Shown one piece after another: positions 1-2,161 of a stretch of 35,380 nt of DNA. Each line of letters starts with the position of its first letter. Within the stretch, counting starts at the first letter, position 1. Source of the stretch: Candidatus Calescibacterium sp. (GTDB taxonomy: Bacteria; Calescibacteriota; Calescibacteriia; Calescibacteriales; Calescibacteriaceae); NCBI GenBank assembly GCA_025060505.1, contig JANXBU010000017.1, positions 1 to 35,380 on the forward strand. Reading direction: 5' to 3'. The notes beneath the pieces are model-generated. The model searched no databases. It saw only the letters and a list, made by a program, of their open reading frames with translations, and was not told where the DNA came from. The position numbers were made by a program, and so were the translations under genes.

Positions 1-145
1 ATAAAACGATCTCCTCAAGAGATCCATCGTTTTTTCTAACTAGCAATTTGAAACCTTCGCCTATGGAAGTTATGTTCTCCACTTCTACTGGTTCTGAGAA
101 ATACGTTGGCAAGTTCACTTTTTTGCCTTTAAGTTTTTCAATCAT
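1..145 (-). CDS. N-terminus of a helicase-like protein (partial, runs off left edge)
   Basis: Reading right to left from an ATG at 145 there are 48 open codons to the window edge. The peptide begins MIEKLKGKKVNLPTYFSEPV and continues with VEVENITSIGEGFKLLVRK. This resembles, from memory, the short beta-rich N-terminal segment of large SNF2/DEAD helicases of restriction and phage-defence loci, in which a PEPV-type strand precedes a G-x-G-(F/Y)-x-L-x-V-R strand. No helicase motif lies inside the window, so the family call is inference. The gene starts 29 bases after a 31-codon ORF and has no clear Shine-Dalgarno sequence. It belongs to the accessory island that also holds methylase and PLD-helicase fragments, which is part of the reason for the call. 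It could equally be another large restriction-associated protein. Confidence 0.5.
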   Translation of the reverse strand, partial: MIEKLKGKKVNLPTYFSEPVEVENITSIGEGFKLLVRKNDGSLEEIVL

Positions 146-174
146 TTCGTTCTTTCTATATTCTTTAAATTGGC

Positions 175-270
175 TTATAATTTCTTTCGTTCTTTATTCC
201 GATGGATTTTAGTCTCAAGCCATTCTTCGCCCATGCTCTCTAAGGCATTAATACAAACTTTTTCGCTCAT
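175..270 (-). CDS. Possible 31-aa small protein upstream of the helicase-like gene
   Basis: An ATG at 270 opens a 31-codon ORF ending at TAA (175-177). The peptide starts MSEKVCINALESMGEEW and is charged and lysine/arginine-rich towards the end (NKERKKL). It begins 5 bases after the stop of the methylase-tail ORF at 276-374 and ends 29 bases before the helicase-like gene, so it is placed like a gene in a minus-strand operon. I do not recognise a family. It could be a genuine small gene of the defence island, the start of a decayed larger gene, or chance. Confidence 0.3.
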   Translation of the reverse strand: MSEKVCINALESMGEEWLETKIHRNKERKKL

Positions 271-275
271 ATTAT

Positions 276-436
276 TTACACACTCATTGCTTTTTCAAGT
301 CTATTTTTTACAAGTTCTGCGACTGCTAAATAAACCTCTTTGCGCTCGTCTTCTATCTGAGCCAAAGTTATCATACTTTGTTAAATTGTAAAGTTTATAA
401 ACAAGTTGGTCAATTTGCCTTTTACATAAACCTCCA
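276..436 (-). pseudogene. Broken C-terminal tail(s) of Eco57I-like DNA methylase
   Basis: Two methylase-like tails lie in different frames on the minus strand. One frame reads KRQIDQLVYKLYNLTKYD, close to the typical end of Eco57I/type IIG adenine methylases (I-D-x-L-V-Y-x-L-Y-x-L-T). The other frame, ATG 374 to TAA 276-278, reads ERKEVYLAVAELVKNRLEKA and ends in MSV; I recognise this as the end of another N6-adenine methylase-like family. The tails overlap out of frame and no catalytic NPPY motif is present, so this is residue of deleted or fused genes. A close relative of the second tail occurs at 1569-1660. The 32-codon ORF may still be translated, but it cannot be an active enzyme. Confidence 0.5.
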
Positions 437-485
437 TAAGTGTTTGAATTAAACAAACTATTTTAGAAAAAACCTTTTAAATTTT

Positions 486-1499
486 TTATAAACTCCTCTT
501 CAGCAAATTTAAAGCAAATTTTTTCAACATTCTTTCCATTTTTTTATCTTGGTAAACTTGCAAGCTTTTGCATTCAACCCAAAATTCAACAATTGACTTT
601 TCTAACAGAAAAGATACAAGAGGAAAGGGTAAACCTAGCTTTATATACTTCTTGAGAGTATAAATAAACTCTTTGAGATCATCGTAGAATAATTCTTCCA
701 AGTAGACATAAAAGAAGAACCGATGCAAAGGGAAAGGAAACCTATCAAACGCTTCACTCAACCATGCATATCCTTGATATTCTGCTGGTTGGGATTTGAT
801 AAGGCGTTGAATTAAACGCGCCTCATAAGATTCGAACCTGTCATATGCAATCGAATTAGCCAAACTTTCTTCTATTATTCGCCCCCAAATTTTGTCATAT
901 GGAGTAATTCCACTATCCATAATAGCATGTCCAAGTTCATGATAATAAACCTTATCCAAAACAAGTTCAACTGGAATATTTTCTTTCCATGCCCAATTAA
1001 TGATGCGTTCAGGACAAAGGAATATGGCTGGACTTTCTAAATTTTGAAGAGCGCTTTTCGCATCGTCAGAACGATATTCAGTTTTACCTAAACCGATGAT
1101 GTTAGTAACATCATATGTATGAGAAAAATTTTTTATATAAACTCCAACAGCAACTACTTCTTTATAATGCTGCCAAGTTTCTTCTTCAGTTTTTTCAAGT
1201 TCCTTAAATAAATCTTTATCCTTTTCTTCATCCTTTATTCTTTCATCCTCTCTCCATTCATTTAACCGAGCACGAACTTTTTTTGGATCAAGGGCACGGC
1301 GTCGTTCAGGTGGGTAAATGGTGTCCATTTGTGCTTCGTTTACCAGGAAAACGGGAATGGAAACCGCCTTAGCTCCCATAGGTGCATTCATTCTTTCCCA
1401 AAGTTCTTTCCGAAAGAAATTTAACATGCTGCCCGCCTTACTTCCCAGATTATAAATATTGATAGGTAGCTGCGTTAAAAACTTATTATTTCCTGCCAT
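486..1499 (-). CDS. Putative zinc metallopeptidase (HELGH motif), 337 aa
   Basis: The motif VYYHELGHAIMD at residues ~184-195 is a zincin HExxH signature: H187 and H191 would bind zinc and E188 would act as catalytic base. About 20 residues later, IIEESLANSIAY (E210/E211) could give the third, glutamate ligand as in gluzincins. The N-terminal ~120 residues are charged and helical, and the C-terminus is rich in aromatics (FFFYVYLEELFYDDL). There is no signal peptide, so it should act in the cytoplasm. I do not recognise the specific family. The gene is intact, with a strong AAAGGAGGT ribosome-binding site 5 bases before the ATG. It is flanked on both sides by methylase-tail debris, so it is probably an accessory, possibly defence-associated, protein. 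Substrate and role are unknown. Confidence 0.65.
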   Translation of the reverse strand: MAGNNKFLTQLPINIYNLGSKAGSMLNFFRKELWERMNAPMGAKAVSIPVFLVNEAQMDTIYPPERRRALDPKKVRARLNEWREDERIKDEEKDKDLFKELEKTEEETWQHYKEVVAVGVYIKNFSHTYDVTNIIGLGKTEYRSDDAKSALQNLESPAIFLCPERIINWAWKENIPVELVLDKVYYHELGHAIMDSGITPYDKIWGRIIEESLANSIAYDRFESYEARLIQRLIKSQPAEYQGYAWLSEAFDRFPFPLHRFFFYVYLEELFYDDLKEFIYTLKKYIKLGLPFPLVSFLLEKSIVEFWVECKSLQVYQDKKMERMLKKFALNLLKRSL

Positions 1500-1504
1500 T
1501 TCAC

Positions 1505-1513
1505 ACCTCCTTT
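1505..1513 (-). promoter_or_regulatory. Strong Shine-Dalgarno site of the metallopeptidase gene
   Basis: The minus strand reads AAAGGAGGT, a full-length anti-16S match, 5 bases before the ATG at 1499. It fixes the start and contrasts with most genes in the window, which lack such a site. Confidence 0.8.
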
Positions 1514-1540
1514 TACGTTTCTTTTATACACCTTTGTTTT

Positions 1541-1600
1541 TTCTAATCTATTTTTCTAATCTATTTTTTTACAATTCTATTTTTTTTACAATTTCTACTA
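1541..1600. repeat. Two adjacent short tandem duplications in a decayed methylase tail
   Basis: On the plus strand the 13-mer TTCTAATCTATTT occurs twice in a row (1541-1566). It is followed by two near copies of a TTTTTTACAATTCTA-type unit. On the minus strand these are duplicated versions of the codons for V-K-N-R-L-E-K of the methylase tail, comparable with the single copy in the relative at 276-330. The duplications introduce stops and frame changes. Confidence 0.7.
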
Positions 1601-2161
1601 CTGCCAAATAAACTTCTTTTCGTTCTTATTCTCGTAAGCCAAGAGCATCAAAAACAATATCATCAAGTGCTTTTCGGTCTGGTAATGGATTCAACTCTTG
1701 TTCACGAATGGGTTTCGTGGGGTCAAATATTTTGAAGATGTAGAGTTTTGCGTGGTTAGGTTCTAAAGTTTTGCGCAATTCAATTTTTCCTTCTTTCAGA
1801 AGATTCAGAAAAAATCAATCTGCTCATATATCTCCTTTTTGTCGGTATCCGGAGAATTGAAGGCTCTTTTCAGAGATTCAAGAAACCTGTTTTTTACTTC
1901 ATCTTCTCTGATCTCAGATGAATTTTTTGTGAATTCATAAAGACCGTAAACTCCGCTATCAATATCAAGTCCAACAAGTATTTTCAAGAATTTATCTTTC
2001 ATTCTACCTTCTTCGTAGAGTTTTTTTAAGGTTTCGTAAAGTTGTTGGATACCAGAAAAGTAGAAGAAACCGACCAGAAACTTGAGCTCTGAGCTTTTTT
2101 CTATAATCTGATTTAATCTTTCTGCAAGATTCTTAGTCCCGGCTGTGTTGGTAATGAACAT
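1569..2161 (-). pseudogene. Chimeric pseudogene: PLD-nuclease/helicase N-terminus joined to methylase C-terminus
   Basis: From the ATG at 2161 the first 118 codons encode the start of a PLD-type nuclease domain as found at the front of some SNF2 helicases: SSELKFLVGFFYFSGIQQLY, later KFLKILVGLDIDSGVYGLYE. The frame stops at 1805-1807. Adding one T to the T6 run (minus strand, ~1808-1815) restores it, giving LLKEGKIELRKTLEPNHAKL and YIFK, which carries the HxK half of the PLD motif. At about 1733 the homology changes to a methylase C-terminus: PDRKALDDIVFDALGLRE, an in-frame TAA at 1626-1628, then ERKEVYLAVVEIVKK and TAA at 1569-1571. The helicase motor and the methylase catalytic core are both missing, consistent with a large internal deletion. 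The frameshift could be a sequencing error in a homopolymer, but the junction and the second stop would remain. Confidence 0.6.

Follow-up and report, generated by a model that had tools for sequence, protein, structure and literature searches.

Gene fragments at the left edge

The window, i.e. the whole stretch of 35,380 nucleotides that was analysed, is the start of contig C24 in the genome of a Candidatus Calescibacterium sp., the assembly of which is fragmented (115 contigs, 86% complete). At its left edge, the minus strand carries pieces of helicase and methylase genes together with one intact metallopeptidase gene. The order proposed by a sequence-only reading, namely a PLD-helicase N-terminus, a methylase C-terminus, an intact metallopeptidase-like gene, a further methylase tail, a small ORF and a helicase-like N-terminus, was borne out, as the fragments match PLD-helicases and methylase tails and the peptidase ORF is intact and has homologues. 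The small ORF itself (31 codons, about 175..270, minus strand), which separates the edge helicase from the second methylase tail, yielded no credible homologue and is unsupported as a gene.

The first element (1713..2161, minus strand) derives from a PLD-Snf2 helicase, of which it keeps the N-terminal HKD (phospholipase D-like) domain, about 148 residues long, with a frameshift near 1810 and a truncation at about 1720. In a tblastn search of 72,556 plasmids, positions 1805-2161(-) together with 1814-1713 in another frame matched a helicase-related protein from Thermus oshimai (E 6e-20); positions 2158-1808 correspond to residues 4-116 of this 1123-residue protein with 47% identity and, after the frameshift, positions 1814-1713 to residues 115-148 with 65% identity. 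The helicases of Allomeiothermus and Parabacteroides align to the fragment similarly, the helicase of locus L054 in a genome of the same family matches it too, and the EPNHAKLYIFK stretch at the end of the fragment is where the HKD nuclease domain has its H-K motif.

Around position 1727, helicase similarity gives way to methylase similarity. The last 50 or so codons of a Type IIG-like methylase, including one in-frame stop, are thus fused to the helicase fragment (1580..1727, minus strand); positions 1727-1580 are 80% identical at the nucleotide level, over 148 bp, to the methylase 3' end of locus L065 in another same-family genome and, at the protein level, 68% identical to the T. oshimai methylase and 65% to that of Thermococcus. 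To judge from this junction, the helicase gene has been joined to the methylase 3' end through the loss of both gene bodies. Indeed, the Swi2/Snf2 motor domain is absent from the locus, since the helicase fragment stops at about 1720, as is the methylase catalytic domain (NPPY), 3' ends alone being present. A search of the same genome for the missing halves of the helicase and methylase found none. Contig C82 of this genome carries another fragmentary, stop-bearing DNA methylase (L058, 8978-11137), which was rejected as the missing half because it is a different gene.

Beyond the peptidase gene, positions 278..424 (minus strand) hold a second methylase 3' end, in which the closing codons of a Type IIG-like methylase of the PDLC03596 type, QIDQLVYKLYNLT, are followed in another frame by a relic tail left from another methylase, EDERKEVYLAVAELVKNRLEKA. 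This segment matches L054 with 92% identity over 38 bp and 81% over 74 bp, and an intact methylase there ends in the same two consecutive pieces; the segment also matches the methylases of Parabacteroides and Thermococcus. In relation to the first methylase tail, the relic tail is a direct repeat with 80% identity. In the repeat comparison, the two minus-strand copies (copy 1 at 1567..1632 and copy 2 at 291..354) are 80% identical over 66 bp (E 9e-12) and flank the peptidase gene, which suggested a cassette insertion of this gene. However, as the relic tail in G001, the genome harbouring L054, follows an intact methylase without any peptidase, the repeats may merely reflect two neighbouring methylase ends. 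The relic tail is common to two genera (L054 15340-15460; window 278-365) and lies in both 3' of the end of another methylase, as though the final codons of one methylase gene had persisted after another took its place.

The outermost element (1..145, minus strand) probably represents the opening 48 codons of a helicase of the HmaA type (Swi2/Snf2). Positions 145-1 are 50% identical over 44 aa (E 1.9e-9) to an intact 1145-aa protein of a same-family genome (L057, 5341-8778), which itself scores against the PADLOC HmaA profile with an E-value of 4.5e-187; in the plasmid search, a Calothrix plasmid helicase was matched at 37.5% (E 8e-4). Searching the genome with the HmaA (Snf2) profile retrieved no remaining HmaA. 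Because the window starts at a contig end, this helicase is cut by the contig rather than evidently decayed.

Intact counterparts in same-family genomes

The same-family loci described here belong to the genomes G001 (L054), G003 (L065) and G004 (L055, L056 and L057). In L054, an HKD-Snf2 helicase (1070 aa) precedes a pair of small ORFs (101 and 106 aa), which were read from their sequences as MNT/HEPN-like, and then a 1146-aa methylase matching the PADLOC profile PDLC03596 (REase_MTase_IIG) with E=0. Another HKD-Snf2 helicase and methylase are encoded in L055, where the methylase is cut by the end of its contig. The order from helicase to methylase is found in L054, L055 and Parabacteroides, and is reversed in T. 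oshimai. In G003, the equivalent methylase is directly followed, on contig C4 (L065, 8102-9790), by a gene for an HTH protein, the HExxH motif of which resembles that of ImmA/IrrE, and then by a PIN-like gene; this metallopeptidase-like gene differs from that of the window, yet occupies the same position.

Since same-family genomes carry whole systems, the first locus of the window is a deletion remnant, which would have lost roughly 6-7 kb if it was spaced as in G001. The proposal that a helicase/methylase locus of the restriction type once stood here and was mostly deleted is thus upheld by the intact counterparts in L054 and L055 together with the PADLOC profiles. Like the HKD-Snf2 and N6-methylase systems (PADLOC C3a139 'HKD+Snf2' with REase_MTase_IIG), of which same-family genomes keep the helicase-methylase pair, the window retains an HKD domain with HAKLYIF as well as methylase C-termini, but it differs from them in having neither the motor domain nor the methylase catalytic domain. 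The Type-2 BREX-related systems serve as a comparison for this type of system (PMC12839542); among the relatives examined, neither a DUF499 ATPase nor DUF3780 was recognised next to the HKD-Snf2/methylase pair.

The edge helicase had been taken for a part of the same decaying locus. Its reading as a helicase-like N-terminus stands, given the HmaA match in L057, but it is better assigned, on sequence similarity, to the start of a second, Hma-type locus, separate from the HKD-Snf2 one and cut by the contig end. The Hma system is a Type-1 DUF499 BREX-related system (PMC12839542), and G004 contains two Hma loci, L056 and L057, the latter with HmaA, HmaB, a 224-aa ORF and HmaC. While the window helicase matches the HmaA of a genome with HmaABC in order, it differs in showing 48 codons alone, the HmaB methylase and the HmaC DUF499 ATPase lying, if present, beyond the contig.

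Altogether, the left edge probably preserves the remains of two adjacent defence loci of the restriction type, between which lies the gene of an accessory metallopeptidase. Because the assembly is fragmented, a chimeric join at about 1720 is conceivable, the more so as the window begins at a contig end and methylase-tail repeats could drive misjoining, but a frameshift and an in-frame stop also occur inside the fragments, as real decay predicts, the same relic tail is found in G001 with its own stop codon 3' of the intact methylase, and no further helicase N-terminus or methylase-tail parts are found elsewhere in the genome, all of which makes a fusion produced by a chimeric or collapsed contig highly improbable.

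The metallopeptidase: motifs, fold and constraint

The intact gene (486..1499, minus strand) encodes 337 aa and is preceded by AGGAGGTG, with a good AGGAGG site 5' of the ATG. Its product contains HELGH at residues 187-191 and EESLAN at 210-215; H187, E188, H191 and E210/E211 are invariant in 12 homologues, and the two motifs are invariant or nearly so. This HExxH...E pattern would be that of a gluzincin, and the protein is designated hereafter as the zincin. No significant match to it was obtained in Pfam, NCBIfam, PADLOC or PDB sequences. The AF2 model reached a pLDDT of 82, with a good core, and its structural neighbours are mostly metal hydrolases, the best being YbeY (Z 7.6), DPP III (7.5) and ACE (5.5), values that stay below the level excluding chance and may merely mean a common arrangement; a Foldseek search of the model against PDB and BFVD gave no E-value below 0.001.

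Regarding known families, the zincin resembles the ImmA/IrrE proteases (M78, PF06114) in its HExxH...E pattern with an N-A stretch after the Glu, and a protein with such a motif, as seen by eye, is encoded 3' of the equivalent G003 methylase. A relationship to this family was not detected, however, either by Pfam in any of 12 members or by the hhalign profile comparison with the G003 protein, which indicated no homology. A weak match to the putative metallopeptidase family DUF4344 (PF14247) appeared in three of 12 members (best E 0.015), too weak for membership. The reading as a viral gene was discarded, with no match in IMG/VR or phages, and a match in genome G020 (28%, E 8e-4) proved to be an unrelated ORF that was lost with a profile.

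By eye, the N-terminus bears no signal peptide. Most unsaturated pairs of homologues have a dN/dS of 0.30-0.51, the closest T. thermophilus pair being near 0.95; values below 1 thus prevail, which indicates constraint on the protein. The peptidase probably remains functional and is best described as a putative zinc-dependent gluzincin, cytoplasmic and made of a single chain, that belongs to a rare family.

Distribution and gene neighbourhood of the metallopeptidase

A contig scan with the single zincin sequence found no homologue, while an alignment query recovered homologues in Thermus plasmids and genomes, in Armatimonadota and in other hot-spring assemblies, as well as one distant copy in G718. 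The zincin is present in eight of 111 genomes of the Thermus phylum, in 2/251 and 1/147 genomes of two other phyla, in 2/386 genomes broadly and in none of the four same-family genomes. The family is therefore rare, patchy and mostly thermophilic, and its copies are often broken by insertions or frameshifts.

Two arrangements are found in Thermus. In lineage A, the order is a YCF48-like gene, a 66-aa ORF, an MBL-fold hydrolase, the zincin and GmrSD/DUF262; the zincin is followed by GmrSD after a gap of about 30 bp in L006, L012 and L016, which is kept in a divergent pair (L033, 59% and 62%), and an MBL-fold gene lies upstream of the zincin in at least seven Thermus-type loci. In lineage B, the zincin is followed by a YCF48-like gene, a 66-aa ORF and an AddB-like gene; the T. 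brockianus copies lie beside a YCF48-like gene and an AddB-like nuclease. CRISPR, Csx1 or Argonaute (pAgo) occur within several kb of other Thermus copies. In the Armatimonadota loci L015 and L017, the zincin, a Type II REase and an MTase succeed each other with gaps of about 20 bp, the zincin of L017 being broken. As for the G718 copy, it is a lone gene among chromosomal genes. Across the loci compared, there is no universal gene combination around the peptidase. The zincin does recur beside restriction genes in three lineages, i.e. with GmrSD/DUF262 in Thermus, with a Type II REase-MTase in Armatimonadota and with methylase remnants here; this adjacency was read from the loci themselves, and defence genes are in any case abundant on Thermus megaplasmids. 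Members of the family repeatedly form apparent operons with differing types of restriction enzyme. Type IV restriction of the GmrSD/DUF262 kind (PF03235) adjoins the zincin downstream in several Thermus loci, but is absent from the window.

Two side observations concern these loci. A divergent gene or gene pair (about 340 aa each) of an uncharacterised family adjoins the zincin in L005 (15815-17841), L006 (13390-15431), L009 (7872-8912) and L011 (5409-7429); no domain match was found for the two-gene pair beside the Thermus zincins, a weak EAD1 match (E 0.016) not being used. Besides, on the L012 contig, which is labelled Bipolaricaulota, the zincin, MBL and GmrSD genes are 98-100% identical to Thermus copies, and this contig is probably misbinned Thermus DNA or a very recent transfer.

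Possible roles of the metallopeptidase

ATP-dependent restriction-modification is established for the HKD-Snf2/N6-methylase families. By family membership, the N6-methylase of the ancestral system would have marked self DNA, while the Snf2 motor would have moved the HKD nuclease along unmarked DNA, which the latter would have cut. As neither the motor domain nor the methylase catalytic domain remains, this restriction activity has been lost here. The zincin probably serves restriction loci as an accessory protease, which may cleave a specific protein when a restriction system is engaged or unbalanced. Proteases act as effectors or regulators in other immune systems; ImmA acts proteolytically on its repressor and ClpXP on HsdR. 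By analogy, regulated proteolysis limiting or releasing restriction activity is a plausible though tentative function for the zincin, and a cell-stopping effector is conceivable with some reserve. It is rather doubtful, if worth considering, that this undescribed gluzincin family would provide a dedicated protease to restriction systems of several unrelated kinds (GmrSD, Type II REase-MTase and helicase-methylase), controlling restriction or triggering cell arrest by protein cutting. Among the GmrSD papers that a literature search listed, none uses the word "metalloprotease", and no description of a protease as partner of GmrSD or Type II restriction was found in the literature.

The zincin could instead be a stand-alone mobile defence gene, i.e. 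an abortive-infection effector deprived of a dedicated partner and moving from one defence island to another, a possibility to be held with caution; its rare and patchy occurrence, its presence on plasmids and in several contexts and the frequent breakage of its copies would fit, whereas the conserved short gaps to GmrSD and to REase-MTase suggest partners in at least two lineages. Less favoured is a passenger gene whose role, housekeeping or not, would lie outside restriction, as the singleton in G718 and the MBL-fold, YCF48-like and AddB-like neighbours in Thermus might indicate; rarity and patchiness argue against housekeeping, and the apparent lack of a signal peptide and the restriction genes adjacent in three lineages also make this reading unlikely.

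Finally, the sequence-only reading had envisaged a methylase-helicase cassette with a zincin subunit, intact versions of which would exist elsewhere. In favour of the zincin being a true component of a single HKD-Snf2/methylase system, the window peptidase comes directly after one methylase 3' end and before another, and the G003 methylase is also followed by a metallopeptidase-like gene, albeit a different one, and then by the PIN-like gene. Against it, the helicase-methylase loci of G001 and G004 are devoid of zincin, those of T. oshimai, Allomeiothermus, Thermococcus and Parabacteroides list none, and the HKD-Snf2/methylase pair is adjacent at no zincin locus. With the zincin missing from all four same-family genomes and the pair beside it nowhere, the zincin is not considered part of this system, and the subunit reading is quite improbable. 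What survives of the cassette idea is the association with restriction partners elsewhere, namely GmrSD and the Type II REase-MTase, and not with the HKD-Snf2/methylase system.

Significance

As an example of the decay of a defence island, the helicase-methylase remnant is clear but ordinary, and its losses are visible from same-family genomes. The surviving peptidase family, and not the island, is the part worth following. If this family is indeed a dedicated partner of several restriction systems, DNA restriction would carry an additional, recurring layer of proteolysis, a question that the Thermus MBL-zincin-GmrSD operon makes testable in culturable bacteria; if real, such a partnership would reveal a way in which restriction is controlled or backed up in thermophiles.
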